A DNA stretch of 64,000 bases from Saccharothrix espanaensis DSM 44229 (GTDB taxonomy: Bacteria > Actinomycetota > Actinomycetes > Mycobacteriales > Pseudonocardiaceae), in the NCBI RefSeq assembly GCF_000328705.1, contig NC_019673.1, positions 9,063,501 through 9,127,500 on the forward strand. Reading direction: 5' to 3'. This document shows positions 13,990 through 31,386 of this stretch, piece by piece (position 1 is the first letter of the stretch; each line of letters begins with the position of its first letter). The position numbers and the translations under genes are program-made. The notes below the pieces were generated by a model. The model searched no databases and was not told the DNA's origin. It was given only the letters and a program-made list of their open reading frames with translations.

Positions 13990-14799
13990 TCAGAACTTGA
14001 ACAGCCGGGGGTCGGTCGCGAGGGCGATCAGCTGGTCGCGGGTCAGCGGCACGCTCCGGACGGGCCCGTCGTTGCGGCCGGGCTCGGTGTTGTACCCGGC
14101 CAGCTGGACGGCCGTGCCGTCCGGCCGGTAGTAGCCCACCGAGTGGCCGCCCAAACTCCGGGTGACCGGGCCCACGGCGGTGCCGTACTCCAGCACGCTG
14201 CCGTCCGGCCAGGTCATGTGGTTCACGCAGGTCAGCCCGCGGCAGAAGCTCTCCCGGGTGCCGACCTCGGCGGCCGGGCCCAGGTTCACCATGATCCCGG
14301 TGCCGCCCTCCCGGTCGGTGAAGTAGACGTACCCGCTCACCACGCCGTCGGGCGACGTGAGCCGGCCGTCGACCAGTTCCACCCGCACGTTCGACGCGCC
14401 CGGCACGATCTCGGGGAACCGCGCGGTCAGGTAGCCGGTCAGCGTCGTCGCCTTCCAGGCCGCGCTGTCCCACGGCGGGGCCACCTGGCTCGGCGGGGTC
14501 AGCGTGACCGACGGCTGCCCGTCGGTGGGCTGCCCGTTGGTGGCTGGCGCGGTGGTGTTCAGCAGCCGCTGGTCCAGGGCGTCGACCTCGACCGCGTCCC
14601 GGAGGAGCACGTTGGGCAGCGTCAGCACCGCCGCCATCAGCACCACCGTCGCCACACCGACGGCCACCAGCGCGCGCCGCCTTTTCCGGGCGGCCCGCAG
14701 CCCGTGCGCCCGTCGGATCAGCGCGTCGGCGTCGAAGTCCAGCGGCGGCTCGCCGTCGACCGCCGCGCGCAGGCCCTCCCTCAAGTCCGCTTCGCTCAT
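13990..14799 (-). CDS. Membrane-anchored protein paired with SigE-family sigma factor (anti-sigma-like)
   Basis: A 269-aa protein: acidic/basic cytosolic N-terminus (about residues 1-42), one membrane segment (ALVAVGVATVVLMAAVLTL), then a long extracytoplasmic domain with one Cys pair (SFCRGLTCVN). Its ATG overlaps the upstream sigma gene stop by 4 bp. The topology and coupling suggest an anti-sigma partner, but there is no HxxxCxxC zinc motif of the ZAS class, so the role is inferred from position only. Confidence 0.65.
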   Translation of the reverse strand: MSEADLREGLRAAVDGEPPLDFDADALIRRAHGLRAARKRRRALVAVGVATVVLMAAVLTLPNVLLRDAVEVDALDQRLLNTTAPATNGQPTDGQPSVTLTPPSQVAPPWDSAAWKATTLTGYLTARFPEIVPGASNVRVELVDGRLTSPDGVVSGYVYFTDREGGTGIMVNLGPAAEVGTRESFCRGLTCVNHMTWPDGSVLEYGTAVGPVTRSLGGHSVGYYRPDGTAVQLAGYNTEPGRNDGPVRSVPLTRDQLIALATDPRLFKF

Positions 14800-15323
14800 G
14801 ACGCCACCACCACCCTCTCCAACCCCTCGACCGCCGTGCGCAGTGCCACCAGGCCCCGCGCGGTCTGGCTCTTGACCGTCCCCTCGGTGCACCCCATGGC
14901 CACCGCGACCTCGCTGACCGGCAGGTCCTCGAAGTACCTCAGCACGAGCACGGCCCGCTGCCGGGGCGGCACGCGCAGCAGCGCCGCGTGCACCAGGTCC
15001 CGGGCCCAGAGCCGTTCGCCCGCCAGTTCCGGGTCCGACGACGAGTCGGCGACGTCGGGCAGTTCGCCGTCGCGCTGCTCGGCCCGCCGCCACGGCCTGC
15101 GCTTCTCGTCCAGCCAGGTCCGCAGCAGCACCTTGCGCGCGTACGCCGAGGGGTGGTCGCGCCACTCCACCCGGTGCCACGCCTGGTAGAGCTTGAGCAG
15201 GCTGGCCTGCATCAGGTCCTCGGCGGTGTGCCAGTCGCCGCAGAACAGGTACGCGGTCCGGCGCAGCGCGGCGGCGTGACTGATCGCGAAATCGCGAAAC
15301 GCCTGCTCGTCGGCCCCGCGCAT
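14796..15323 (-). CDS. SigE-family RNA polymerase sigma-70 factor (copy A)
   Basis: A 175-aa ECF-size sigma factor. Region 2 is visible in AYLFCGDWHTAEDLMQASLLKLY and region 4 in VPPRQRAVLVLRYFEDL...VAMGCTEGTVKSQTARG (helix-turn-helix). This is the actinobacterial SigE-family pattern. ATG at 15323 (MRGADEQAF) is preferred; a start further upstream would add a non-conserved head. It is coupled to the following membrane protein and closely resembles the sigma factor at 17257-17775. Confidence 0.88.
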   Translation of the reverse strand: MRGADEQAFRDFAISHAAALRRTAYLFCGDWHTAEDLMQASLLKLYQAWHRVEWRDHPSAYARKVLLRTWLDEKRRPWRRAEQRDGELPDVADSSSDPELAGERLWARDLVHAALLRVPPRQRAVLVLRYFEDLPVSEVAVAMGCTEGTVKSQTARGLVALRTAVEGLERVVVAS

Positions 15324-15408
15324 GAGCACCCCTTCCGACCCCCACCTGTAACCACGTCCCAGGGGGGCGGGAGGTTGCACCGCCGGCGGAGCTGTTCGCG
15401 AAAAAACT

Positions 15409-15996
15409 TCAGCGCGGCGGCATCGCCTTGGCCAGCATCCGCCGCGCCGAGGCCCGGGGGTCCGGGCTGATCTCGATCAGCGCGTTGACCACCGCGCCGT
15501 CCACGAGCGCGATCAGCTCCTCGACCCGCTCCCGCCCCACCGGCAGGCCGGCCCGGGCGAAGATCTCGATCAGCAGCCCGTGCAGCTCGCCGCTGAGCCG
15601 GCGCATCAGCGGCCGCAGGTAGGGCCGCCGCCCGGTGGCGACCAGCCGCTCGTAACGCAGCAGCACCGCCTCGGCGTCCCGGTCGCCCGCCGGCGGGCCG
15701 AGCAGCAGGTCGAGCACCAGGTCGATGAACGCGTCACCGCCGCACGCCTCGACGTCCAGCTCGGTCAGGCGCGCCTTGCCGTAGGCCAGCTCGCCCTCGC
15801 CGTGCAACTCCAGCGCGGCGGTGACCAGGTCGTCCAGCGAGTCGAAGTAGTAGGTGGTGGACGCGAGCGGCAGGCCCGCGCGCTCGGCGACCGCGCGGTG
15901 CCGGACCGCGTCGAAGCCGCCGTCGACCAGCAGGCCCGCGGCGGCTTCGACCAGCGCCTGGCGGCGGCGCTCGCCCTTGGGCGTTGCGGCTGTCAT
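15409..15996 (-). CDS. TetR-family repressor
   Basis: A 195-aa regulator with an N-terminal helix-turn-helix (RRQALVEAAAGLL...VRHRAVAERAGLPLASTTYYF) and a C-terminal ligand domain. It lies 13 bp after sugE on the same strand, so it probably controls its own operon with the efflux pump through palindromes just upstream of sugE. Start ATG 15996 (MTAATPK) is chosen over a start 9 codons upstream that would overlap sugE. Confidence 0.85.
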   Translation of the reverse strand: MTAATPKGERRRQALVEAAAGLLVDGGFDAVRHRAVAERAGLPLASTTYYFDSLDDLVTAALELHGEGELAYGKARLTELDVEACGGDAFIDLVLDLLLGPPAGDRDAEAVLLRYERLVATGRRPYLRPLMRRLSGELHGLLIEIFARAGLPVGRERVEELIALVDGAVVNALIEISPDPRASARRMLAKAMPPR

Positions 15997-16009
15997 TCGG
16001 GGAAAGGTA

Positions 16010-16333
16010 CTAGTGCCCGCCACCGGCCAGGTTCAGGCCGATGACGCCGCTGACGATGAGGCCGAGGGACACCAGCTTGATGGTGGACACCCCGTCGCCC
16101 AGCCAGAGCATCCCGATCACGGCGGTGAGCGCGGCGCCGATGCCGGTCCACACCGCGTACGCCGGTCCGGCCGGCAGCTGCTTCATCGCCCAGGCCAGCC
16201 CGGCGAAGCTGATCAGCGCGCACACCGCGAACGCGACCGTCCACCACAGCCTGCTGAAACCGTCGGACAGCTTCAACGCGACCGCCCAGCCGGCTTCGAA
16301 GAACCCGGACACGATGAGCACGGCCCACGCCAT
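16010..16333 (-). CDS. SMR-family multidrug efflux protein (SugE/EmrE-like)
   Basis: A 107-aa, four-helix small multidrug resistance transporter. The essential membrane glutamate is at residue 13 (SGFFEAGWAV), and PAGPAYAVWTGIGA with WLGD are family marks; the sequence is nearer SugE/Gdx (guanidinium exporters) than EmrE, judged by eye. GAGGAGG precedes the ATG at 16333. First gene of a sugE-tetR pair. Confidence 0.9.
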   Translation of the reverse strand: MAWAVLIVSGFFEAGWAVALKLSDGFSRLWWTVAFAVCALISFAGLAWAMKQLPAGPAYAVWTGIGAALTAVIGMLWLGDGVSTIKLVSLGLIVSGVIGLNLAGGGH

Positions 16334-16355
16334 GGCAACCTCCTCGGGACGAAAC

Positions 16356-16390
16356 TGGCACGAGCGTACCAAATTACTGGCACACCAGTA
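16356..16390 (-). promoter_or_regulatory. Two palindromes upstream of sugE, candidate TetR operators
   Basis: TGGCACGAGCGTACCA (16356-16371) is a near-perfect palindrome, and TACTGG-CACA-CCAGTA (16375-16390) is a perfect one. Both share TGG/CCA ends and lie 23-57 bp before the sugE start, where a promoter is expected. They are the natural binding sites for the TetR protein in the same operon. Confidence 0.6.
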
Positions 16391-16492
16391 CCACTCTGCG
16401 CCACGGGTCACCACCGGGCACGCCGAGAACGCTGAAGACACCCGTCCGAGCCGGCCAGAACCAGAACATGCCCGGTGCAGCACCCGCCCGGG

Positions 16493-17239
16493 TCAGAGCC
16501 GCCCGGCCACCCGGGAGGCGAGATCGGTCAACACGCCCTCGAACGGCCCCACCGCGGAGCCCTGCGCGGGCTCGCTCAACACGAAGACCGTTCCGCCACG
16601 AGCGGGCGCGCGGCCCTCGGAGGGCGACGACGAAGCCAGCGTCTGCACGCCGGGCGGCACCAGCACCACCGAGACCACCCCGTACACGCCCTGCTCGTCG
16701 CGCACCAGGTACCCGGCCCCGCGCGCCCCGGTCGGGCAGTTGGCCACCGCGTGCGAGGGCTGGAGCCCTTCGGCGGCCGGGAGCTCGTCGGCGAGGGCGA
16801 CGGCGAGCTCCCGGTCCACCTCCTGGCACCCGGAGGCACCACCGGTCGTCGGACGACCGGTCGTCCCCGATGTCCCGTCCCCCTGCGTAGACGGATCGTC
16901 GGGGATGCTCTTGGGCGGCATTCCGCCGCTCATCTCGGGGACTGCGGCGGTGTCACCGCTCCGCGGCTCGGGAACCGCGAACGGGCTGAGGTTAGGGGAC
17001 GTGTGGTCTTCAGCGGAACCCGCAGACGTACTGACGTTCTCCCGCGGCACCAGGTTGGCGTACGCCACGACACCGCCGAACGCGAGCACCACCACCATCG
17101 CCGAGCCGAGCGCGAGCCGCGTGCGCCGGCGGGCGGTCGCCCGCGCCGACGCCGAGCGGACGTTGCCCACGTCGAAGGACGCGGGCGGGGCTCCGTTCGT
17201 CGCGTCGCGGAACAGCTCCGCGATCTTGCGCTCGTCCAC
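16493..17239 (-). CDS. Membrane-anchored protein paired with SigE-family sigma factor (anti-sigma-like)
   Basis: A 248-aa protein: cytosolic head (residues 1-40, DERKIAELFRDATNG), one membrane segment (LGSAMVVVLAFGGVVAYA), a Ser/Thr/Pro/Gly-rich linker and an extracytoplasmic domain with one Cys pair. GTG at 17239 follows GGAGGTAG. It lies 17 bp after a SigE-family sigma gene, like the pair at 13990-15323. No zinc motif is seen, so the anti-sigma role is a positional inference. Confidence 0.65.
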   Translation of the reverse strand: MDERKIAELFRDATNGAPPASFDVGNVRSASARATARRRTRLALGSAMVVVLAFGGVVAYANLVPRENVSTSAGSAEDHTSPNLSPFAVPEPRSGDTAAVPEMSGGMPPKSIPDDPSTQGDGTSGTTGRPTTGGASGCQEVDRELAVALADELPAAEGLQPSHAVANCPTGARGAGYLVRDEQGVYGVVSVVLVPPGVQTLASSSPSEGRAPARGGTVFVLSEPAQGSAVGPFEGVLTDLASRVAGRL

Positions 17240-17256
17240 CTACCTCCACCTCCCGG

Positions 17257-17775
17257 TCACTGCGCAGGCCTCAGGTCGTCGATGGTGTCGCCGAGCGCTT
17301 CGCGCAGGGCCTCCAGACCCCGTGAGGTCTGGCTCTTCACGGTCCCCTCGGAACACCCGAGCGCCTCGGCCGCCGCCGCCACGTCCAAGCCTTCCAGGAA
17401 CCGCAGCACGAGCACCGCCCGTTGCCGGGGCGGGACCCGCTTCAAGCCCGCGACCAGAGCCTCCCGCGTGGCGACCGCGTCGGCGATCTCCCCGTCGTGC
17501 GAGGGCGTCTCCGGGACCTCGTCCACGAAGCGCTCCCGCCGCCAGGGCCGGCGCGACTCGTCGATCACCGCGCGCACCACGGACCGGCGGACGTAGGCGT
17601 CCAGGGCCTGCTTGTCCCGGACCTTGCGCCACCTGCGGTGCAACGCGACGAACGCGGTCTGCGCGAGGTCGTCCGCGCGGTGCCAGTCACCACAGAGCAG
17701 GAACGCCGTTCGGCGCACGGCCTCCCGGCGAGCTGCGAAGTACTCCGCGAACTCCTGCTCGTCGCGCTGATCCAC
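17257..17775 (-). CDS. SigE-family RNA polymerase sigma-70 factor (copy B)
   Basis: A 172-aa ECF-size sigma factor with region 2 (AFLLCGDWHRADDLAQTAFVALH) and region 4 helix-turn-helix (ALGCSEGTVKSQTSRGLEAL). DESRRPWRRERF and VPPRQRAVLVLRFLEGL are shared almost word for word with the sigma at 14796-15323. GTG at 17775 follows GGAGAGAG with good spacing; a start 10 codons upstream is possible. It probably competes with or parallels copy A. Confidence 0.88.
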   Translation of the reverse strand: MDQRDEQEFAEYFAARREAVRRTAFLLCGDWHRADDLAQTAFVALHRRWRKVRDKQALDAYVRRSVVRAVIDESRRPWRRERFVDEVPETPSHDGEIADAVATREALVAGLKRVPPRQRAVLVLRFLEGLDVAAAAEALGCSEGTVKSQTSRGLEALREALGDTIDDLRPAQ

Positions 17776-17927
17776 GCGGACTCTCTCCGCTCGTCGTGCT
17801 TGCACTTACCTGACGGAACCGGGCCGTTCTACGGTTGCACGCCGGTTGCCCGAGACTTGGGTCACCCCCATGGTGGTACGGCAGGCGGTAACCGGTAAGG
17901 GCTTGCCCGGTGTGATGTGATCCATTC

Positions 17928-20544: not shown

Positions 20545-21690
20545 TCAGGTCCAGGTCTTGAGCCGCCGCAGTGCCTCGTCGATGTCGGCCGCCGAGCCGG
20601 CGAACGACATCCGCACGAACTCGTGCCCGTGCACCGGGTCGAAGTCTATGCCCGGAACGATCGCCACCCCCGTGTCCGCCAGCAGCCGGCGGCAGAACCC
20701 CATGGTGTCGTCGGTGAGGTGCGAGACGTCGGCGTAGGCGTAGAACGCCCCGTCGGCCGGCGCGACCCGGTCGATCCCCAGGTCGGCCAGCCCGGCCAGC
20801 AGCACGTCCCGGTTGCGCCGGTAGCCGTCGACCAGCCGCGCGGTCTGCTGGTAGGACTCCGGCTCGAACGCCGCCACCGCCGCGTGCTGGGCCAGCGCCG
20901 GCGGGCACAGGGTGAAGTTGCCGGTCAGGCAGTCGACCGCGCGGCGCAGCGCCGGCGGCAGCAGCATCCAGCCCAGCCGCCAGCCGGTCATCGCGAACGC
21001 CTTGGAGAACGAGTTGACCACGATCGCGTCCCGCGAGGTCTCCCACGCGCACGCGAGCGGCGCGCCGTAGCTGATCCCGTGGTAGATCTCGTCGCTGACC
21101 AGCCGGGTGCCGCGCTCGGCGCACCACTCGGCCAGCCCCTTGAGCTCGGCCGGGGTCAGCACCGTGCCGGTCGGGTTCGCCGGGCTCGCGACGACCAGGC
21201 CGTCCAGCGGGCCGGCCTCGTCGAGCATCGCCACGGTCGGCTGGAACCGGGTGTCCGGCCCGCACGGCAGCTCGACCACCTCGCAGCCCAGCGCGCGCAG
21301 GATGTTGCGGTAGGCCGGGTAGCCGGGCCGGGCCAGCGCGACCCGCGCCCCGGCGTCGAAAGAGGCCAGGAACGCCAACAGGAACGCGCCGGACGAGCCG
21401 GTGGTGACCACCACGTCGTCCGGCGTGACGGCGAGCCCGTACTGGCGCTCGTAGTGCCCAGCCAGCGCGGTGCGCAGCTCCACGATCCCGAGCTGCTCGG
21501 TGTAGCCCAGCGGCTGCTCGCGCAACGCCCGCGCGGCGGCCCGCAGCACCGGTTCCGGCGCGGGGCTGGACGGTTGGCCCGCCGCCAGCGAGACGACGTC
21601 ACCGTGCGTCCGCTGCCGGCGCGCGGCGGCGGACACGATGTCCATGACGTGGAACGGCGGCACGTCCGCCCGAGCGGCTACACCCAGCAT
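20545..21690 (-). CDS. Class I/II pyridoxal-phosphate aminotransferase
   Basis: A 381-aa fold-type I aminotransferase. The PLP lysine is Lys230 in SFSKAFAMTGWR; PANPTGTV and SDEIYHGISYG hold the Asn and Asp/Tyr that bind the cofactor, and VRMSFAGS the substrate-carboxylate Arg. Amino-acid specificity cannot be told. ATG at 21690 has TAGCCT six bases upstream, fitting a leaderless transcript. Confidence 0.9.
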   Translation of the reverse strand: MLGVAARADVPPFHVMDIVSAAARRQRTHGDVVSLAAGQPSSPAPEPVLRAAARALREQPLGYTEQLGIVELRTALAGHYERQYGLAVTPDDVVVTTGSSGAFLLAFLASFDAGARVALARPGYPAYRNILRALGCEVVELPCGPDTRFQPTVAMLDEAGPLDGLVVASPANPTGTVLTPAELKGLAEWCAERGTRLVSDEIYHGISYGAPLACAWETSRDAIVVNSFSKAFAMTGWRLGWMLLPPALRRAVDCLTGNFTLCPPALAQHAAVAAFEPESYQQTARLVDGYRRNRDVLLAGLADLGIDRVAPADGAFYAYADVSHLTDDTMGFCRRLLADTGVAIVPGIDFDPVHGHEFVRMSFAGSAADIDEALRRLKTWT

Positions 21691-21721: not shown

Positions 21722-22876
21722 CTAGTAGCCCTGGTAGCCGCCGCCGCCCGCCATCGCCTTCAGGCCCGGGTGGCCGTCGAAGCCGCCGTAGCGGGAGAAC
21801 GTGTAGCGGACGCCGGCGATGATGTTGTCCACCGGGTTCCAGATGTCTTCGTGGCCGGGCAGCTTGTGCGCCTGGAACGTCGGGTCGATGCACTGCATGA
21901 GGCCCTTGGACGGGGTGCCCGCGACGGCGTTGGAGTCCCAGTCGTTGAGCGCGTGCGGGTTGCCGCCCGACTCCTTCTCGATGATCGTCCAGATCTGGTT
22001 GATGTTCGCCTCGGTGACCGGGATGCCGGCGGCCTGGAGGATCTTGATCGCCTCCCGGATCCACTGCTCGACGTTGCCGGGCGGCGGCCCACCGGCCGGC
22101 GGCCCACCACTGGACCCGAGCCCGCTCATACCGCCACCACCACCGCCACCGTGCGAACCGCCAGCGGACCCGCCACCGCCACCACCCGACGGCTGGGACT
22201 GTGGCTGGGACTGCGCGGGCGCGGGCGGCGGCTCGGCCGACGACGTCTGCGTCGTGGCCTCCGGCGTCGGGTTCCACACGATCGGCTGCCCCGGAGCCGG
22301 CACGAACGCCTGCGTGCCGGGGTCCGGCATGGTGGAGAACGCGGGCGTGACCGAGCCGGGCCGGCCCTTCAGCGCGCCCAGCGCCGTGCCCAGCGCCGCA
22401 TCGGCCTGCGCGATCACCGGCTGGGCGTCGCCCGCCGCCTCCCCGCACAGCCCGCGGATGGCGTTGTCGACGTCGGCCTGCGGCATCCCCTGGTGCCGGG
22501 CGCGCACCTGGCGCACTCGTCCCAGCAGGGTCTCGCAAATGCGCGTGATCGACGCCTTCGCCGATTCCAGCGCGGCCGCGGCCGATTCGAGATCACCCGC
22601 CGCCGCGGTGAGCGCGTCGGTCAGCGCGGTGCCGCCCTTGGTGAATTCGCCCATGTACGCCACGAATCCGTCGGCCGACCCGCCTTCCCACGCGTTGTCC
22701 AACTTGCCGACCCGCTGCGCGATGTCGTTGCCCGATTCCGCGCTCTTCGCCGCGGCCTGCTTCCACCGGTTCGCGATCTCCCGGACGGCCTCCGGCCGGG
22801 CCTGGTCCACCTTGCCCGCGAGCTCGGCCAGCGCCTGCCCGCCGGGCAGCGCCGCGACCTCGTCCACCGCGCTCAT
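21722..22876 (-). CDS. WXG100-type domain fused to lytic transglycosylase domain
   Basis: A 384-aa two-domain protein. Residues 1-170 form a helical hairpin of WXG100 type with Trp63-Glu-Gly65 at the turn and two cysteines (114, 144). Residues 175-270 are a Pro/Gly/Ser-rich linker with long glycine runs. Residues 271-384 are a transglycosylase SLT/goose-lysozyme-like domain: likely catalytic Glu302 in IEKESGGNP, then SKGLMQCIDPTF and NIIAGVRYTFSRYGG. No Sec signal peptide. This predicts a peptidoglycan-cleaving protein exported by type VII secretion. It lies 4 bp after a small WXG100-like gene that may be its partner. Confidence 0.85.
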   Translation of the reverse strand: MSAVDEVAALPGGQALAELAGKVDQARPEAVREIANRWKQAAAKSAESGNDIAQRVGKLDNAWEGGSADGFVAYMGEFTKGGTALTDALTAAAGDLESAAAALESAKASITRICETLLGRVRQVRARHQGMPQADVDNAIRGLCGEAAGDAQPVIAQADAALGTALGALKGRPGSVTPAFSTMPDPGTQAFVPAPGQPIVWNPTPEATTQTSSAEPPPAPAQSQPQSQPSGGGGGGSAGGSHGGGGGGGMSGLGSSGGPPAGGPPPGNVEQWIREAIKILQAAGIPVTEANINQIWTIIEKESGGNPHALNDWDSNAVAGTPSKGLMQCIDPTFQAHKLPGHEDIWNPVDNIIAGVRYTFSRYGGFDGHPGLKAMAGGGGYQGY

Positions 22877-22880
22877 CCGC

Positions 22881-23186
22881 TCACACCACCCGGAACGACG
22901 CCGCGTTGGCGTCCTCGACGTCGACCACCGCGCCCTGGATCCGGTCCAGCGCGCGCTCCACCTCGCCCAACAGCGACTCGGCCGCCGCGAACTCCGCGCC
23001 GGCCTTGGTGTCGAGCTCGGCGGCGGCCGCGGAAAGGCCGCCCGAATTCGCCAGCTTGCCGAAGATGTCCGGATCGGGGTAATGCCCGGCGAACCCGTCA
23101 CCCACCGCGCCGAATTGCCCGGCCTGGGCGCCGACCGTGCTCCGGCACTGCTCCATCGCCTCGGCGTTGAACTTCGCGACCGCCAT
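22881..23186 (-). CDS. Small WXG100-like helical protein (possible ESX partner)
   Basis: A 101-aa, mostly helical protein of the length of Esx proteins, with helices around residues 8-32 and 52-98 and a central HYPDPDIFG turn in place of a clear W-x-G. ATG at 23186 (MAVAKFNAE) is chosen over an upstream one. Its stop is 4 bp before the WXG-transglycosylase fusion, so the two are almost certainly co-expressed; heterodimer formation is an inference. Confidence 0.7.
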   Translation of the reverse strand: MAVAKFNAEAMEQCRSTVGAQAGQFGAVGDGFAGHYPDPDIFGKLANSGGLSAAAAELDTKAGAEFAAAESLLGEVERALDRIQGAVVDVEDANAASFRVV

Positions 23187-23225: not shown

Positions 23226-23756
23226 CTATGGACGAAGTTCAGCCAGCAGCGCGGCGATCCCGGACCGCAGCACCGCCGGGTCGACCGGCCCGTGGAAGTC
23301 GACCACGTCCGCCGCCCGCCGCCGACGCCCGGCGGCGTCGATCACCGCCGCGCCGAACCGGCCGCTCAGGTCGGGACCGCCGACCAGGTCCTCCCCGTGC
23401 CGGGGCAACAGCTCCACCAGCGCGCCGGCCAGGTCGGTCGCCGACTCGCGCACCGTCAGCCCGTTCCCGGACAGCACCACCAGCACCACCTCGGCGCCCG
23501 CCGACGCGGCCAGCGCCCGCACCGCCGAACTGCCGAACCCCAGCCGCAGGTCGACCGACCTCGGCGGGTTCGCGACGAGCTTGCAGGCCGCGCCCAGCCA
23601 CGGGTCCAGCTCGCCGCCGCGGGCGAGCCCCCGCTCGGTCAGCTCGTGCCACGGCGCGGGATCGTCCGGCACGTGCAGGACGATCGGCATCGCGCCGAGG
23701 TCGAGGTGGTCCCAGGCGGTGCGGAAAGCGCTTGCGCTCAACCTCGCGGTGATCAC
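23226..23756 (-). CDS. EspG-like ESX secretion-associated chaperone (short)
   Basis: A 176-aa protein with EspG-family patterns: LPLVLHVP-type first strand, HELTERGLARGG, PWLGAACKLVANPPRSVDLRL and a GSGNGLTV turn. EspG proteins bind PPE-type substrates and take them to the type VII machinery. It is shorter than typical family members of about 250 aa and lacks most of the C-terminal half. It is separated from the full-length paralog by 103 bp without a gene. Confidence 0.7.
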   Translation of the reverse strand: MITARLSASAFRTAWDHLDLGAMPIVLHVPDDPAPWHELTERGLARGGELDPWLGAACKLVANPPRSVDLRLGFGSSAVRALAASAGAEVVLVVLSGNGLTVRESATDLAGALVELLPRHGEDLVGGPDLSGRFGAAVIDAAGRRRRAADVVDFHGPVDPAVLRSGIAALLAELRP

Positions 23757-23859: not shown

Positions 23860-24633
23860 CTAGACCTCGTGGACCAGCTCCCACACGCACGCCGCGAGCC
23901 GCGCGTTGTCGATCGGGGTGATCGTGCTCCAGCTCCGGCCGTCCGAACTGGGCCGCACCAGGTGCAGGTAGCGGCCGGACGGGGTGTCGTGCCAGGAGAC
24001 CACGCGGTCCGCGCGCGCCGGGGGACCGCCGGCCTGCGCGCGTTCGGCCCCGAACTGCCCGCGCGTGCCCATGCCGTCGCACATGCCGGCCAGCTCCTGC
24101 GCCTCGTGCAGCGGGAGCCCCTGGCGTTCCAGGGCGAGCACCAGCTTCTCGGCGTCCCGCCCGGCCTCGTCGGAGGCCGCCCGCAGCAGCTCGTTGGGCA
24201 GGCTGATCGACCGCCCGTAGCCCGCCGGCACCTCCCCGGTGACCGACACCGCGGCCTCGGCGAGCGCGGAGGCCCGTGCCTCGATCAGCCACACCTCGTC
24301 ACCGTCGACCACCGCGAGGACCGCCTCCTCGCCGGACGCCGCCGCGAGCCCCTTGATCTTGCGCCGCTCCACCCAGATCCAGAGGTCGACCGACAGCCGC
24401 GGGTTGGCCAGCAGCGCGAAGGTGTCGGCCAGTTCCGGCGTCAACCTCCGCCCGGCCGCCAACCCGCGCTGCGCCAACGACTCCCAGGCGCGGTCCACGA
24501 TCACGGCCCGTTCGGAGTGCGTGATCCCGGGGCTGGGCACGTCGAGCGCGACGTTGCGACGGGTGTGCCGCTCGGCCTCCCACGCGACGTCGAACTCGAC
24601 CGAGGAGAGGACGACCGTGCCCGCCGAGGTCAC
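23860..24633 (-). CDS. EspG-family ESX secretion-associated chaperone
   Basis: A 257-aa EspG-family protein: FDVAWEAERHTRRNVALDVPSPG opening, RAWESLAQRGLAAG, LANPRLSVDLWIWVERRKIKGLAA, and a C-terminal VRPSSDGRSWSTITPID segment. Role: cytosolic chaperone for the PPE-like protein encoded just upstream, whose stop it overlaps by 4 bp (GTG start at 24633). This tight coupling supports a cognate pair. Confidence 0.82.
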   Translation of the reverse strand: MTSAGTVVLSSVEFDVAWEAERHTRRNVALDVPSPGITHSERAVIVDRAWESLAQRGLAAGRRLTPELADTFALLANPRLSVDLWIWVERRKIKGLAAASGEEAVLAVVDGDEVWLIEARASALAEAAVSVTGEVPAGYGRSISLPNELLRAASDEAGRDAEKLVLALERQGLPLHEAQELAGMCDGMGTRGQFGAERAQAGGPPARADRVVSWHDTPSGRYLHLVRPSSDGRSWSTITPIDNARLAACVWELVHEV

Positions 24634-25934
24634 TTGGTCTCGGGCTCGTCGCCGATGACGGACTGGACGACCATCCGCTCGTCACCGAAGACGTCGTCGG
24701 AGTCCACGCCGTACTTGCGGACGTGCTCGCCGTCCTCCTCGCCCTCACCGCTGCGCGCGGCGGGCTGGAGCATCGACCCACCAGCGGCGCCCTTGACGCC
24801 GCCGGCGACGACCCCGCCCTTGCCGGCCACCCCCGCCCGCGCTTCGGCACCAGGCCGCGACGCGACCCGCTCGTCGGGGTCGATCGCCCCGATCGTGGCG
24901 GACACCCCGGCCTTCCCGGCCAGCGCACCCGGGACCGCGCCCTTGCCACCGCCCTTCGGCACCGCCTCGCCACCGGGCTTGCCGCCACCCTTGGCCCCGG
25001 CAGCGGACGGGTTGCGCTCCACCCGCCCACCCCGAGCCGTGGCCGCCACAGCACCGAGGGCGGCCCCACCGGCCAACCCCAACCCCAACCCGAGCCCGAG
25101 GTTCGACCCACCGGCCTTACCCTGCACCACCGGGGCGACCGGAGTACCACCCTGGGCACCGGGCACGAACGGCGAGACCCCCGTCCCCCCACCCCCGGGA
25201 AGCTGACCGGGCAACTGACCCGGCAGCTGAGGCGGCAACCCCACCGACCCACCAGGCACCTGCCCCGAACCACCGCCGGGCAACCCACCGGGAAGCCCAC
25301 CGGTCGTCCCCGGGATGCCCCCACCGAACTGGTGCACCGAGGCAACGGGCGTGGCAACAGCGGCAGACGCCGTGGTCACCTCGAACTCCCGAGGCTTGTT
25401 CATGCCCTGGTACTGGTTGAGCGAGTCGCGGCTGACGTCGACGTACTGGTCGAACCCCCGGATCACCTGCTCCCGCGCCGCCTGAGTCTGCTTCACTTCC
25501 TTCGCGTGGTCGGTCTCGTAACCGAAGAAACCGCCCGCGTCGTCCCAAAAACTCGTCTCGGTGTCGCCGCGCAACTGCTGCGGGTCCGGCATCCCGTTGC
25601 GGGACTGGCTGTAGCTGGCGCCCTGCACGGCGGTCGCCTGCGAGTTCCGCTTGCCCGCCTCGTCGCCCTGCGTCGCCACGTCGGCCGACACGGTGACCGC
25701 CTGCCCGGCGTTGTCCCCCGCCGCGCCCTGCCACTCGATGCCCAGCTTGCGCAACTCGGTGCGCAGGGTCTCGTCCACCTCGGCGAGACTGCCCGCCAGG
25801 CTGCGCAGCGCGTGCGAGGCGTTGCTGAACTGCTGGGCCGCGTCGCTGGTCGCGAACTTGCCGACCAGGTCGGCCAGCGCGTGGTTGTCGTAGCCTTCGA
25901 AGCGGTGATCCTGGATCTGCCTGAAGCCGGTCAC
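24630..25934 (-). CDS. PPE-like/WXG-type type VII secretion substrate
   Basis: A 434-aa protein. The N-terminal 180 residues are helical with a W-x-G turn (Trp68-Gln-Gly70), resembling PPE/WXG proteins of Pseudonocardiales; the middle is Gly/Pro/Leu-rich (about 200-290), and the C-terminal part is Gly/Lys/Ala-rich ending in an acidic segment (EGEEDGEHVRKYG). No signal peptide. It is coupled to the EspG gene, as expected for a chaperone client. Function after export is unknown. Confidence 0.75.
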   Translation of the reverse strand: MTGFRQIQDHRFEGYDNHALADLVGKFATSDAAQQFSNASHALRSLAGSLAEVDETLRTELRKLGIEWQGAAGDNAGQAVTVSADVATQGDEAGKRNSQATAVQGASYSQSRNGMPDPQQLRGDTETSFWDDAGGFFGYETDHAKEVKQTQAAREQVIRGFDQYVDVSRDSLNQYQGMNKPREFEVTTASAAVATPVASVHQFGGGIPGTTGGLPGGLPGGGSGQVPGGSVGLPPQLPGQLPGQLPGGGGTGVSPFVPGAQGGTPVAPVVQGKAGGSNLGLGLGLGLAGGAALGAVAATARGGRVERNPSAAGAKGGGKPGGEAVPKGGGKGAVPGALAGKAGVSATIGAIDPDERVASRPGAEARAGVAGKGGVVAGGVKGAAGGSMLQPAARSGEGEEDGEHVRKYGVDSDDVFGDERMVVQSVIGDEPETK

Positions 25935-25944
25935 AGCTTCCCCC

Positions 25945-26541
25945 TCACTTCAAGGTCCGCAGTGTCGAAAGGGCGGATTCGGCGCCCTTGGTCGCGTTCT
26001 GGCACATCTCGTCCTGGGTGAACGCCTTGGACGTGTACGGCAGGAACTGCACGTGCAGTTGCTGCCCGTCCGCGACGTCGAGGGTGACCGAGCAGTCGAA
26101 CGACGAAGTCCCCTTCAGGAACACCTGCGAGGCGTCGTAGCCGGCGACCGTCTTGGGAGCCACGTCGAGGTTGCTCGGCCCGTCCCAGAAGTCGATGCCC
26201 TCATTGGACACCAGGGTGATGTTGTAGCCGGCGGATTTCGAACCGTTGATCGTGTACGCGCACGAGGGTGAATCCGTGCCCTTCACGACGTCCGCGGTCT
26301 CGTTCTTGAACTCGTCGATCTTGAGATCCGACTTCTGCGTGTCCGTGAGCAGCTTGCACGGGTCCACGCCGTCGAGCTTGAGCTCTTTCGGACGTGTCGA
26401 CGGAGCCTTCGAGGTCGTCGTGGGATCGGACGACCCGGTGCCAGGGGACGCGGTGGGGGTGCCACCGGTCGTTCCGGGCGTGCAGGCTGCCACCGCGACG
26501 AGCGCGAACAGTGCCGCGACCACCCCTTTAGTCAGCCGCAC
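25945..26541 (-). CDS. DUF3558-family lipoprotein
   Basis: A 198-aa lipoprotein: signal peptide with lipobox (AVAAC), a Gly/Ser/Thr/Pro linker to about residue 50, and a DUF3558 domain (GVDPCKLLTDTQKSDL, SPSCAY, FDCSV, QDEMCQ with four spaced cysteines). DUF3558 lipoproteins commonly sit beside ESX genes in this order. The GTG start overlaps the end of the preceding gene by 14 bp. Confidence 0.85.
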   Translation of the reverse strand: MRLTKGVVAALFALVAVAACTPGTTGGTPTASPGTGSSDPTTTSKAPSTRPKELKLDGVDPCKLLTDTQKSDLKIDEFKNETADVVKGTDSPSCAYTINGSKSAGYNITLVSNEGIDFWDGPSNLDVAPKTVAGYDASQVFLKGTSSFDCSVTLDVADGQQLHVQFLPYTSKAFTQDEMCQNATKGAESALSTLRTLK

Positions 26542-26989
26542 GTGCCGACCCCATCGCCGCCTTGACCTCTTCCTCGGTGTGGCCGTACTGCACGGCGGTC
26601 GCGCGGAGCTGGGTCACCAGCCCTTCCAGGCTGGTCATGTACTCCATGATCCGCTGCGCGTACGAACCCTCGCTGTCGACCAACCGGTCGTTCCAGGCTG
26701 CCGCGATGTCGGAGTTCACGTCGTCCGCGTTCTCCAACCGGACCTTCAGGTCACGGGACGCGTCGCGGTACGAGCGCCTCAAGCTCTCCAACTGGTTCTC
26801 GATGACGTGACCGGCCTGGAGGACCGTTTCCTTCGTCACCGCGAATTTCTGTCCCGCGGCCGGCGAGTTGGCCATCGTGTCGTTCAGGCGCTTCTCCGCC
26901 GCGAACACCTCGCCGACCGCACGCCCGATGGCCCCACCCACGCCGGCGACGGCTCCCAGTAGGCCGTTCTCCTCTGCCACGACGCCCAT
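26528..26989 (-). CDS. PE-like helical protein with YxxxE export motif
   Basis: A 153-aa, mainly helical protein. A Gly/Ala-rich first helix, then a long helix pair with Trp99 near the turn (AAAWNDRLVD) and, late in the last helix, Tyr135-Gly-His-Thr-Glu139. That matches the YxxxD/E type VII secretion signal. It begins the minus-strand ESX-related gene run, two genes before the PPE-like protein, so it could be the PE-type partner. ATG 26989 is chosen; the longer frame upstream is unsupported. Confidence 0.65.
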   Translation of the reverse strand: MGVVAEENGLLGAVAGVGGAIGRAVGEVFAAEKRLNDTMANSPAAGQKFAVTKETVLQAGHVIENQLESLRRSYRDASRDLKVRLENADDVNSDIAAAWNDRLVDSEGSYAQRIMEYMTSLEGLVTQLRATAVQYGHTEEEVKAAMGSARAAD

Positions 26990-27069
26990 CCCCCGTACGG
27001 TCGGTAACGGATTGGTCCCGGTCCGCAGGCTACCAACGACCGCGTGAACCGGGTCTGAGGTTGGACGAA

Positions 27070-27098
27070 AGCGAGGGCGGACAGGTTCCGCCCTCGCT
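27070..27098 (-). terminator. Terminator downstream of purD
   Basis: A perfect 12-bp stem (27070-27081 with 27087-27098) and 5-nt loop 48 bp after the purD stop. On the minus strand the stem is followed by TTTCG, so it is oriented for purD. Confidence 0.8.
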
Positions 27099-27145
27099 CG
27101 GATGTCGTAAGAACGGGTGGCGTGGATCACCACCGATGGGTGACG

Positions 27146-28402
27146 CTAGGGGACCTCGATCTCACCGTTCGCCGCGCGCAGCGCGATGTCCGTGCGGTGG
27201 TGGGAGCCGGTCAGGTGAACGGATTCCACGCGGCGGTACGCCTCCGCGCGGGCCTCGGCCAGGGACGCGCCCGTGCCCACGACGGACAGCACGCGGCCGC
27301 CCGTAGAGACCACGGCTCCGTCTTCACGGCGGCGCGTGCCGGCGTGCAGGACGCCCTCGGCGTCACCGCCCGTGATCACGTCGCCGGTTCGCGGCCGGCC
27401 CGGGTAGCCCTCGGCGGCGACGACCACGGTCACCGCGTAGCCGTCCGCCCAGTCCAGCGGCTCGACCGAGGCCAGGGACCCCTGCGCCGCCGCCAGGAAC
27501 AGCCCGGCCAACGGCGTGCGCAGCAGGGCCACGACGGCCTGCGTCTCCGGGTCGCCGAACCGGCAGTTGAACTCGATGACCTGCGGGCCGTCGGACGTCA
27601 GCGCCAGCCCCGCGTACAGCAGCCCGCTGAACGGCGTGCCGCGCGCGGCCAGCTCGTCCACCACCGGCTGCACGCACGTGGACACGATGGTCGACACCAG
27701 CTCGTCGGACGCCCAGGGCAGCGGCGAGTACGCGCCCATGCCGCCGGTGTTCGGGCCGGAGTCGTTGTCGCCGACGCGCTTGAAGTCCTGCGCGGGCAGC
27801 AGCGGCACCACGGTGGAGCCGTCGACCAGGCAGAACAGCGACACCTCGGGCCCGTCGAGGAACGACTCCAGCAGCACCGGGTGGCCGTGGTCGAGCAACG
27901 TCATCGCGTGCGCCCGCGCCACCGCCCGGTCGGAGGTGACCACGACGCCCTTGCCGGCGGCGAGCCCGTCGTCCTTCACCACCCAGCGCGGCCCGAAGTG
28001 GGTCAGCGCGGCGTCGAGGCGGGCCGGGTTGTCGACCACCTCGGAGGTCGCCGTGGGCACGCCGGCGGCGGCCATCACGTCCTTGGCGAACGCCTTGGAG
28101 CCTTCGATCCGGGCCGCCGCGGCGGACGGGCCGAAGCAGGGGATCCCGGCGGCGCGGACGGCGTCGGCCGCGCCCGCCACCAGGGGCTGTTCCGGCCCGA
28201 CCACGACGAGGTCGGCGTTCCACTCCTTGGCCAGCGCGGTGACCGCGTCCGGGTCGCCCGGGTCGACCCCGTAGATCTCCGCCAAGCCCGCGATCCCGGC
28301 GTTGCCGGGTGCGCAGGCGAGCGCGATCACCGAAGGGTCCCGCGACAACGCGAGGGAAAGGGCATGTTCACGGGCGCCAGACCCGATGACCAGGACACGC
28401 AC
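27146..28402 (-). CDS. purD: Phosphoribosylamine-glycine ligase
   Basis: GAR synthetase, an ATP-grasp ligase for purine synthesis step 2. The 418-aa protein starts [16 protein letters not shown] and shows [26 protein letters not shown] (ATP-grasp loop), [12 protein letters not shown] and GSNHRTDI-like closing residues. GTG at 28402 lies eight bases after TAGGCT. A terminator follows. It is downstream of the TRAP transporter genes on the same strand but has its own promoter signal. Confidence 0.96.
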
Positions 28403-28430: not shown

Positions 28431-29411
28431 TCAACCGCCGAACGCGTCCAGTGAACCGGCGTGCAAGGGCACCGGATCGGTCAAGGGGGCCTTCTCCTTG
28501 ACGATGTCCCGCGCGGCCGGGTGGATCTTCTCCAGCTCGGCCTTCTTGTCGAACAGCAGCCGGGTCACGGCGCACGCGTCGGCGTCGGGGAAGTCGGCCC
28601 GCACCAGCAGCACGTTGGGCACGACCACGGTGGGCACGTCGGCGGCCTGGCCGTAGGCGGCGGCGGGGATGGTGCCCTTGTCGTAGACCGGGTTGACCTC
28701 CTTCAGCTTGGGCAGCAGCGGCGTGATGTCGATGAACTTGACCTGGTCCTTCAACGACGTGGTGAGGTCGGTGATCTGCGCCGTGGGCAGCCCACCGGAC
28801 CACACCAGCCCGTCGAGGCTGCCGTCCTTCATCCCGTCGGCGGTCTTGGCGAGGTCGAGCCGCTGGGCCTCGACGTCCTGGGCGGGGTCGAGCCCGGCGG
28901 CGGTGAGCAACCGGTTGGCGATCACCTCGGTGCCGGACTTGGGCGACCCGGTGGAGATCCGCTTGCCCTTCATGTCGGCGATCGAGTTGATGCCGCTGGA
29001 CGCGCGCACCAGGACCTGCGTGTAGTTCGGGTAGAGGCGGGTGAGCGCCTGCACCTTCTGCGGCTTGCCGTCGAACGCGCCCTTGCCGTTGACGGCGTCG
29101 GCGGCGGTGTCGGCGAGCGAGAACGCCAGGTCGTAGTCCCCGGCAACGAGCTGCTGGACGTTCTGCACGGACGCGCCGGTCTCGGCGGCCGTGGCCTTGA
29201 GCTTGGTGTTGTCACTGATCAACTTCGCCAGCCCACCCCCGATGACGTAGTACACGCCGCCGGAGTTGCCGGTGGCGATGGTGACCCGCCCTTCGGACGC
29301 CTCACAAGCCGCGCCACCCGACGCGCTCTCGTCGGCCGCGCGCTTACCGCCGCACCCGGCCGCCACCAGAGCGACCGCGAGGACGGCGACAGGGACCTTC
29401 CAGCTACGCAT
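28431..29411 (-). CDS. TAXI-family TRAP transporter solute-binding lipoprotein
   Basis: A 326-aa SBP with lipobox (VAAGC) and the TAXI signature region [20 protein letters not shown], followed by [12 protein letters not shown] and [14 protein letters not shown]. It captures a small organic acid or amino acid (glutamate and others in known members) for the fused permease. ATG at 29411 follows GGGAACGAG; its first bases overlap the permease stop by 8 bp. Confidence 0.92.
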
Positions 29412-31386
29412 CTCGTTCCCTTCCCCGTACGAGGACCTTCGGCAAAAGCAGGTGCACACCGACCGCAGCCAGCAAAAAACCCACCCCCACAACCACAGAC
29501 CAGCCCTGAAGAAACAGCAGAAGAATCGCCGCAGGCAGACAGAGCAACCGTTCCGGCCACCGCGCAGGCCCGAACATCCACCCCCCGGTGAGAACGGCCA
29601 ACGCCGCCACCCCTACCACGGAAACGCCAAACGCCCACAGCACATCACCCACGGACGCCCGCAACAACAACCCGGCGCCGCTATCGGTCAACACAAATGC
29701 AAGTGGCACCAGGAATGCCGGCAACGTGTACTTCCACGTACGCCACATGGTCTTCATGACATCGCCACCGGTGATCGCCGCAGCAGCCACTGCGGCCAGC
29801 GCGGTAGGCGGCGTCACCTCGGACAGCACGGCGTAGTAGAAGATGAACATCGCGGCCTCTTCACGAGCCACCCCCAGCTCGATCAACGCAGGCCCGATCA
29901 CCACCCACGAAATGATGAAGGAAGCCGTAACCGGAACCGCCAAGCCCAACACGCTGACCGCAACAGCCGCCAACACGACCGTGACGAAAAGAACAACAGC
30001 GGGATCCGACGAAGCAAACCCGGCGACCTCGACCAAGGCAGAGGCCAACTCCTGCCCCAACCCGGTCTTGGTGATGGTCGAGGTGATGACCCCCGCCGCC
30101 GCACAGACAGCGATCACCGGCAACGCACTGCGCACCCCGAGCGCCAACGAGTCCACCATCGCCCGCGCCCATCCGCGAACGTCCCCCCGCCGCGCCACCA
30201 ACGCGAAAACCGCAGCCACTCCGGTCGCGTAGACCACGGCCGAATACACCGGAATGTCCAACGCCAGAAAAACCACGATCACCGCAAGCGACAAGAAGTG
30301 GTACCCACCCCGCCGGAGCAACACCCAAGGCCCCGGCACGTCGACCTCGACCGGTTTGGCCCCGAACCGACGAGCGTCGACCTCCACCGCCAGCGCGATG
30401 CCCAGGTAGTACAAGAGAGTGGGCAGGATCGCCCAGGCCAACACCTGCAGGTAAGAAGTCTCCAGGTACTCCGCGATGATGAACGCCGCCGCCCCCAGCG
30501 TCGGCGGCGACAAGATCGCCCCGATCCCCGAAGCCGCCAGCAACCCACCGGCGTTCTCCTTCGGGTACCCGGCCTTCTTCAACATCGGCCAGGTGACGGC
30601 ACCCAGAGAAACGGTAGTAGCCGTACCCGACCCGGAAACAGTCCCCAACAAGAACCCGGCCGTAGCCGCCGTACGCCCAGGAGCAGTACGCGACTTCCGG
30701 AACGCCGAAAAGCTGATATCGACGAAGAACGCCCCCGCTCCCGAAGCGTTCAACACCGACCCGTAGATCGTGAAAAGCACGATATAGGTGGCTGCCACGT
30801 CCAACGGCGTCCCGTAGAACCCGGTGGCATCGTTGTAGAACCCATTGATGATCTGCCCAAAATCCACCCCCGCGTGCGAAATCGCCCAGGACGGCGGCAG
30901 ATACCCCCCATAATAAGCAAACGCGATGAACCCGATGCACACCACCGGCAACACCCACCCGGTAGTACGCCGACAGGCTTCCAGAACCAACAGCAACAAC
31001 ACGGACCCGGCCACCACGTCCAGATCCGTCAACTGCCCCTGACGGTCCAAAAACGCATCAAACCCGCCAAACAACGGATAAGCGCCGACCACAAACGCCA
31101 AACCCGCCAAGACCCAATCGACGACATGCGGATCGTTCCCGCCGCGCCACCCCCGATAACACAAAAAGACCAGCGGCAGCGTGACCGCGAGAAAAATAAC
31201 GAGATAGTACTGACCCCCCTTCGCGAAGGGCCAAAAAACTTGCTTGAGCACCAGCAACGCCACCCCGAGCGTCGCCGCCCAAACACCTGACTCCCACTGC
31301 CGGGACAACACCCGGGACGGTCGCTCCTCGTCGTACTCGGCAATCAACTCGGAAACATCAGCCTGCGGTTTGGTCGACACGCGCAC
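29404..31386 (-). CDS. TRAP transporter fused permease (DctQM)
   Basis: A 660-aa membrane protein combining small (DctQ) and large (DctM) TRAP permease parts, as usual for TAXI systems: about 17-19 helices, with GTVSGSGTATTVSLGAVTWP and the GASEVTPPTAL-type loop (here SEVTPPTALAAVAAAAI) of the DctM half. Start GTG 31386. Codons are odd for this window: many TTT, ATT, GTT, TAT, TGT and GGG, unlike the C-ending bias of the next gene. Translationally coupled to the SBP. Confidence 0.92.
   Translation of the reverse strand: MRVSTKPQADVSELIAEYDEERPSRVLSRQWESGVWAATLGVALLVLKQVFWPFAKGGQYYLVIFLAVTLPLVFLCYRGWRGGNDPHVVDWVLAGLAFVVGAYPLFGGFDAFLDRQGQLTDLDVVAGSVLLLLVLEACRRTTGWVLPVVCIGFIAFAYYGGYLPPSWAISHAGVDFGQIINGFYNDATGFYGTPLDVAATYIVLFTIYGSVLNASGAGAFFVDISFSAFRKSRTAPGRTAATAGFLLGTVSGSGTATTVSLGAVTWPMLKKAGYPKENAGGLLAASGIGAILSPPTLGAAAFIIAEYLETSYLQVLAWAILPTLLYYLGIALAVEVDARRFGAKPVEVDVPGPWVLLRRGGYHFLSLAVIVVFLALDIPVYSAVVYATGVAAVFALVARRGDVRGWARAMVDSLALGVRSALPVIAVCAAAGVITSTITKTGLGQELASALVEVAGFASSDPAVVLFVTVVLAAVAVSVLGLAVPVTASFIISWVVIGPALIELGVAREEAAMFIFYYAVLSEVTPPTALAAVAAAAITGGDVMKTMWRTWKYTLPAFLVPLAFVLTDSGAGLLLRASVGDVLWAFGVSVVGVAALAVLTGGWMFGPARWPERLLCLPAAILLLFLQGWSVVVGVGFLLAAVGVHLLLPKVLVRGRERDA

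Follow-up and report, generated by a model that had tools for sequence, protein, structure and literature searches.

A WXG100-lytic transglycosylase fusion of Saccharothrix espanaensis as a candidate type VII-exported enzyme acting on the producer's own cell wall

The 64,000-nt stretch of Saccharothrix espanaensis DSM 44229 analysed here, which we call the window, carries a gene for a 384-aa protein at 21722..22876 (ATG start at 22876, TAG stop), on the minus strand, as are the other window genes described below between 20545 and 28402, and its homologues align from Met1. A preliminary description had placed an N-terminal WXG100-type domain and a C-terminal lytic transglycosylase in this one polypeptide, and we find the fusion to be real, the coordinates correct and both Pfam domains in a single frame. 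PF06013 (WXG100) matches residues 26-106 with 37.2 bits against a cut-off of 27.3, and PF01464 (SLT) matches residues 294-375 with 40.5 bits against a cut-off of 21.3, while the NCBIfam WXG100 model TIGR03930 scores 37.4, below its own cut-off of 44.85. In a profile search of solved structures the hairpin matched EsxA/EsxB-type WXG100 chains, together with chance helical chains, and residues 264-384 alone gave no match at E 1. There was no Pfam match to a CHAP domain in the fusion. Database records already name the domains, as WXG100 family type VII secretion target and as transglycosylase SLT domain-containing protein.

The AlphaFold2 model of the fusion was built on a 43-sequence alignment, with a mean pLDDT of 77.6 and a pTM of 0.50. 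It has helices at residues 28-62 and 66-127 flanking the W63-E64-G65 turn (22682..22690), and a third helix at residues 133-175 (22352..22480), with pLDDT of 80-97 for this block. It had been set beforehand as a check that structure prediction should find a helical hairpin within residues 1-170, and it does, the hairpin with its W-E-G turn being refined to residues 28-127 (22496..22795). The N-terminal half has the sequence and the predicted helices of a WXG100 hairpin. The third helix is followed at residues 187-206 (22259..22318) by a linker motif, QxFxPxPG....W, that is near-invariant in alignments: Q189, F191, P193 and W201 are present in all 43 aligned fusions, and are kept in 77, 73, 80 and 79 respectively of a wider set of 81 sequences, which comprises the window's fusion and those of 80 related loci. 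This motif, which separates the helical module from the Gly linker, recurs in close form in versions of the protein with NlpC/P60 (P0124 and P0125). The Gly/Pro linker of the preliminary description is seen in the sequence as a Gly/Pro/Ser-rich stretch at residues 208-263 (22088..22255), with residues 208-257 modelled as disordered (pLDDT below 50).

The C-terminal domain, residues 264-384 (21725..22087), is helical in the model and by PF01464 and PHROG 167 belongs to the SLT lytic transglycosylases, being of the type found in phage tape-measure proteins. The Glu302 pointed out earlier (21971..21973), like W63 and G65, is invariant in 81/81 sequences, although the stretch around it, residues 301-330, is modelled with low confidence (block pLDDT 53-59). 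We take Glu302 to be the catalytic residue, a role known for the SLT/GH23 fold, and on the conservation of this residue we regard it as very probable that the domain would be an active enzyme. PHROG 167 (tape measure) is the best match of residues 245-384 (E 2.9e-39), 903 of 50,697 phage records match the fusion somewhere at E 1e-5, and the best phage tape-measure match, among those listed, has about 51% identity over residues 268-384.

The gene upstream (22881..23186) ends 4 nt before the start codon of the fusion, which is thus one half of a two-gene unit. It encodes a 101-aa protein, which we refer to as the partner, with predicted helices at residues 2-31 and 48-99 and a C-terminal V87xxxE91xxN94xxxF98. 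The window's partner was modelled as a two-helix protein with modest confidence (pLDDT 70), the other four models having pLDDT of 52-60. It has no match to a Pfam family and no WXG motif, and of 40 members of the partner family 4 match DUF2563, 4 the coiled-coil model DUF7310 and 2 WXG100, all weakly. Membership of the EspC family was considered and rejected, as PF10824 matches 0/40 members at E 0.1. With the window's own partner as query there were matches in 67/80 related loci at E 1e-4, and with 40 family queries in 80/80, a figure that is partly circular in that 39 of those queries come from the same loci. The partner gene had been overlooked in the preliminary description, as had the lack of a canonical YxxxD/E secretion signal.

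As had been stated, the window's fusion has no recognisable Sec signal, no 15-residue stretch within the first 60 residues exceeding a mean hydropathy of 0.99; by the same measure values reach 1.69 among the 81 fusions, and 1.81 in the N-terminal 90 residues of a paralogue in the same genome that has no WXG100 domain. The available parts of PMC3935865 state that mycobacterial type VII substrates need YxxxD/E, with an extended pattern H-xxx-D/E-xx-h-xxx-H. Within the final 35 residues, YxxxD/E is found in only 1/40 partners. In 9/40, including that of the window (YPDPD), the motif is at residue 36, within the loop that joins the two helices. Among 43 fusions it is found before residue 260 in 6, in 4 of these at residue 10 alone, ahead of the hairpin, and in 2 after the WXG turn; the window's own fusion has none before residue 260. 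By comparison, the two WXG100 proteins of the ESX region in the same genome have YSAAE and YVQQE.

The extended pattern fares better. Position 87 of the partner is V, M, I or L in 40/40 (V in 34) and position 91 is D or E in 36/40, and the hydrophobic-xxx-D/E-xxxxxx-hydrophobic spacing, with the second hydrophobic residue at 98, is found in 35/40, including the window's partner, with the Tyr replaced. PE25 is printed as YATAEADNIKTF in the available text of PMC3935865, and the window's partner reads VVDVEDANAASF. The canonical YxxxD/E is absent from the pair, and what appears to be a version of the extended signal without Tyr is present, with Val at the Tyr position. Given the result for YxxxD/E we do not class the pair as a canonical T7SSa (ESX) substrate, and suggest only that it may work like one.

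Five further genes lie between the partner gene and purD. The first encodes a short EspG-like protein of 176 aa (23226..23756; PF14011, E 2.8e-21) and the second an EspG-family (chaperone family) protein of 257 aa (23860..24633; PF14011, E 7.8e-74), the gene for which has a 4-nt overlap with that for a PPE-like protein of 434 aa (24630..25934; PF00823, 29.9 bits against a cut-off of 26). They are followed by genes for a DUF3558 protein with a lipoprotein-like N-terminus (25945..26541; PF12079, the lipobox being read by eye) and a weakly WXG100_2-like helical protein (26528..27133; PF25547, 18.9 bits, under the cut-off of 27). The upstream conserved landmark is purD (27146..28402; TIGR00877) and the downstream one is an aminotransferase gene (20545..21690; PF00155). 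The truncated EspG-like gene beside the full-length one has its best match at its own place in 7/80 related loci (Saccharothrix, Umezawaea and two of Lentzea type), and is also present in the purD-aminotransferase interval of 6/6 genomes of the same genus. Next to purD there is a TRAP-type uptake pair (window 28431-31386, an NMT1-like binding protein and a DctM permease), matched in 39 and 37 respectively of the 80 loci, and window 14796-17805 has two ECF-type sigma factor genes around a TetR regulator, an SMR transporter gene and a gene for a 248-aa protein without a Pfam match. PADLOC gave no defence system match for six window proteins.

The only type VII-related genes near the pair in the window are those for EspG and the PPE-like protein, with no ecc genes. 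The genome, a single contig of 9.36 Mb, has one EccB match, surrounded in one region by EccC, EccD and MycP-kind subtilase genes and two WXG100 genes, and the fusion pair is about 0.36 Mb from this eccB. EccB was found in 149/150 genomes of the family, so its co-occurrence with the fusion does not discriminate.

A search for the same fusion in other Pseudonocardiales had been suggested, and the best 80 of 479 relatives, which we surveyed with flanks of up to 10 kb, comprise 62 Pseudonocardiales loci and 18 Streptosporangiales loci; one record counted with the Pseudonocardiales is titled Nocardia, and groups inside Lentzea in the tree. In the 62 Pseudonocardiales loci purD is present in all, the aminotransferase gene in 59, and the EspG, PPE-like, DUF3558 and WXG100_2-like genes in 54. 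The 8 loci in which the EspG/PPE-like module is missing (six of Saccharopolyspora, one of Crossiella and one of Longimycelium) retain the partner and fusion, which shows that one module can occur without the other. EccB, C or D was found in the flank of 0/62 of these loci.

The Streptosporangiales loci are very different, as no neighbour from the window other than the partner was matched in any of the 18, and EccC is present in the flank of every one of them. In 15/18 the pair follows eccC in the same orientation, at distances of up to 526 nt, and in 11 of the 18 the partner start overlaps the eccC stop or is within 30 nt of it; in 8 the partner and fusion genes overlap by 4 nt, start codons being those that we selected in both cases. 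The other three loci (L076, L084 and L087) have the pair near eccB, eccD and eccC in a different arrangement. L080 also has a separate WXG100 gene pair, and thus the fusion pair is not a replacement for it there. In this Nonomuraea ESX locus (L080, 11072-13546) a gene with a protein-kinase domain follows the pair. The 18 ESX-linked fusion sequences are on one side of a branch with support of 87/95, L076 being a long branch.

We see the eccC linkage in this sister order as the strongest evidence for the type VII export that the preliminary description had predicted, and on the basis of gene order and sequence we consider export of the fusion by this route highly probable. A cytosolic or otherwise non-exported protein, in which the WXG100 likeness is structural only, would be in keeping with the absence both of a signal peptide and of a canonical YxxxD/E after the hairpin, but would leave the presence of EccC at 18/18 Streptosporangiales loci without explanation. 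We also know of no cytosolic substrate for a peptidoglycan lyase, which counts further against this alternative, and we consider it very improbable.

With regard to the enzyme itself, the genome of S. espanaensis has four SLT matches, and the closest paralogue (at 6663107) is a 270-aa protein, 69% identical, that lacks a WXG100 domain and has a hydrophobic segment at its N-terminus. Use of residues 1-206 as query gave at least 63 proteins from 7998 candidates, and of these 63 listed proteins 60 have SLT, 2 have NlpC/P60 and 1 (285 aa) has neither. The two with NlpC/P60 are Streptosporangium proteins in which the same N-terminal module (43 and 41% identity) is joined to that domain. In Sphaerisporangium melleum (L065) the gene order is eccC, partner, WXG100-NlpC/P60 and WXG100-SLT, and in Sphaerisporangium perillae (L070, 9235-9972) the partner itself is fused to NlpC/P60 and is followed by WXG100-SLT, such that a single dimer, as predicted, would bring together two enzymes that cut the wall. 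The latter architecture was found in one genome, as a query with L070 residues 1-140 found the L070 protein alone. The C-terminal domains being SLT or NlpC/P60, the C-terminal enzymes seen are all of wall-cutting families.

The combination of an export module with alternative enzymatic domains, SLT or NlpC/P60, would also fit an antibacterial type VII effector directed at competitors, with shuffling of C-terminal domains as in polymorphic toxins, and in the available sections of PMC3482391 the toxin domains include NlpC/P60 and a glycohydrolase family that cuts peptidoglycan, and the export domains include WXG; the word transglycosylase was not found in those sections. CpnT of Mycobacterium tuberculosis, as described in the accessible part of PMC8092274, is an ESX-5 substrate with a C-terminal enzyme, a YxxxE motif, Esx partners and an antitoxin gene. 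It resembles the fusion in general layout, with an N-terminal type VII export module, a C-terminal enzyme and small Esx genes in the operon, and this too speaks for an effector. However CpnT is a NAD glycohydrolase with YxxxE and an antitoxin gene, whereas the fusion has neither of these features and belongs by its enzyme domain to a peptidoglycan-cutting family. The LXG toxins with their Lap partners, as treated in the portions of PMC11217815 at hand, are alike in that their long helical module depends on a small helical protein as partner, in which WXG is optional. They differ in that the fusion has WXG, in an actinomycete with ESX rather than type VIIb, and has no immunity gene among the neighbours tested. 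The main text of PMC11217815 has no mention of peptidoglycan, hydrolase or transglycosylase.

The results on immunity count against the effector proposal. The preliminary description saw no obvious cytosolic immunity gene next to the fusion, and we find that no tested window neighbour behaves as one, either across the 80 loci or in six genomes that lack the fusion; in the 18 ESX-linked loci only the partner, of the window neighbours tested, was matched at all. The DUF3558 protein was the likeliest candidate for immunity outside the cytoplasm and was rejected, being matched in 54/80 loci, unmatched in 26 that have the enzyme, and kept in 6/6 genomes without it. An effector would also not be expected to have SLT as its most conserved part, or to show order-wide synteny, and we regard this role as improbable. 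The evidence favours type VII export and action on the producer's own wall over a rival-killing effector, and taken by itself the producer's own wall is the probable target.

Selection on the fusion can be judged only roughly, as NG86 estimates of dN/dS are rough in GC-rich genomes, but the values are 0.20-0.31 for the SLT part and 0.31-0.45 for the hairpin in comparisons of the window with six Saccharothrix loci, 0.02-0.04 and 0.16-0.20 respectively for three Lentzea-type pairs, and 0.20 and 0.43 for one Saccharopolyspora pair. The fusion is under purifying selection and SLT is its most conserved part. In the six Saccharothrix comparisons dS of the SLT segment (21725-22087) is about half that of the hairpin (0.18-0.25 against 0.36-0.56). 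Within the family there is a match at E 1e-10 in at least 130/150 genomes, often of the SLT part alone, and a near full-length single alignment in at least 77/150.

Among the candidates scored, the fusion is nevertheless missing from 6/6 genomes of the same genus that were searched. That this was an artefact of the search was considered and rejected, as the pair is gone from the purD-aminotransferase interval in all six. Every other gene of the module is kept in these intervals, EspG/PPE and DUF3558 included, and the space at the place of the pair is 15-608 nt, against 1535 in the window. In one of them (L115, 5168-5777) there are decayed pieces of the partner start, the fusion middle and the fusion end, which shows secondary loss of the pair there. 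All six genomes keep EccB and a related SLT protein without WXG100. Two records under the NCBI name Actinosynnema have the fusion at 86-87% identity, and as our genus sets cannot be linked to taxon names, the loss may be less than genus-wide. Loss from six EccB-bearing genomes means that neither growth nor ESX strictly needs the enzyme, which by its sequence record is conserved but dispensable.

Our preferred explanation, to which as a whole we give a probability of about 0.6, is that the fusion is a lytic transglycosylase of peptidoglycan which is exported through an ESX (type VII) system and works on the wall of the producer itself. The WXG100 half would form a dimer with the helical partner encoded just upstream, and EccC would recognise the C-terminal helix of the partner by its V-xxx-E-xx-N-xxx-F spacing, with Val at the usual Tyr position. 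The pair would then be exported folded, and the flexible linker, to judge from the invariant residues, could allow the tape-measure-type SLT domain to reach and cut nearby glycan strands. The outcome would be a local opening of the wall, for secretion or for growth.

The preference given earlier to a housekeeping role holds up in part, with synteny, the invariant Glu, purifying selection and the fact that no neighbour other than the partner is present in all loci in its favour, and the absence of the fusion from the six EccB-bearing genomes of the same genus against it. Similarly, of the two options then offered, a growth enzyme acting on the producer's own wall and an effector, the evidence supports the own-wall side of the choice, but the choice omitted a wall-opening enzyme that serves the secretion system itself, and this third reading fits at least as well.

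There are then two more specific forms of our preferred explanation. In the first the enzyme is dedicated to secretion, being delivered by ESX and opening the wall around the ESX apparatus for ESX substrates. The position of the pair after eccC in 15 of the Streptosporangiales loci, the SLT plus NlpC/P60 combinations in related loci, a pairing also employed in Gram-positive conjugation, and the phage tape-measure type of the SLT domain are in accord with it, as is EssH, a wall hydrolase required for type VIIb secretion according to the available text of PMC13059805. However it has to accommodate the loss of the fusion from six genomes that keep EccB, though all of them keep a related SLT protein without WXG100, and the lack of ecc genes in the flanks of all 62 Pseudonocardiales loci. 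Further, the first ESX complex could not rely for a way through the wall on an enzyme that is itself exported by ESX, unless secretion is able to get past at an early stage without it. We put this form forward as a tentative one.

The second form is general wall remodelling in hyphal growth, branching or sporulation, with ESX merely the exit and with functional overlap with the paralogue that has a hydrophobic segment. Inheritance of the fusion in synteny beside housekeeping genes, the presence of that 69%-identical SLT protein in the same genome and a near full-length match in so many genomes of the family (77 at the least) are as expected for such a role. On the other hand it accounts less readily for the presence of the pair at eccC loci of another order, and it too must allow for the absence of the fusion from the six genomes of the same genus. 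Taken on its own it is about as tentative as the first.

Several known systems are relevant to how the fusion should be viewed. The WXG100/ESX substrate pairs (EsxB-EsxA, PE-PPE and EspC) have in common with it a WXG hairpin, an adjacent small helical partner and a partner C-terminus with the H-xxx-D/E-xx-h-xxx-H spacing given in PMC3935865. They differ in that the fusion has a large enzymatic C-terminal half, and its partner has Val at the signal Tyr and in the window has no Pfam family, with only the 2 weak WXG100 matches among 40 members. The transglycosylases of phage tail tape-measure proteins (PHROG 167) have an SLT domain of the same kind, which in the phage is on a tail protein and here is on a WXG100 module. 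CwlT and TraG of Gram-positive conjugation have SLT and NlpC/P60 paired on one Sec-exported or anchored protein, and are alike in that a domain for cutting glycan and one for cutting peptide come together at a secretion machine, the difference being that here the domains ride on ESX-type modules. We found no paper on a WXG100-SLT fusion in the open-licence literature among the matches listed; Amycolatopsis type VII genes are treated in PMC11004387, in the available part of which there is no transglycosylase.

To our knowledge, how type VII substrates cross the peptidoglycan layer is an unsettled matter. The one dedicated type VII wall enzyme that we found described is the staphylococcal EssH, which in the available text of PMC13059805 is a Sec-exported CHAP hydrolase of Staphylococcus aureus needed for type VIIb secretion. 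The fusion is like EssH in that a wall hydrolase is associated with type VII secretion, and unlike it in that EssH has a CHAP domain and is Sec-exported independently of the type VII machinery (PMC13059805, same text), whereas the fusion lacks a signal peptide and carries its own WXG100 domain. A broader proposal, which we advance tentatively and consider less likely than not, is that non-mycobacterial actinomycetes use their ESX systems to send out a wall drill of their own, in which the partner, with its Tyr-less signal, and WXG100-SLT form a folded heterodimer, and that this drill opens the peptidoglycan at the secretion site. In Sphaerisporangium such a drill would be supplemented by, or made double-headed with, an NlpC/P60 endopeptidase, and if the proposal is true the fusion would be a self-exported actinomycete counterpart of EssH. 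The pair may also offer a naturally occurring case in which Val replaces the Tyr of the YxxxD/E signal, supposed to be obligatory, and a widespread actinomycete hydrolase with a WXG100 module, placed behind eccC in one order, makes the question of how the wall is crossed testable in soil bacteria.
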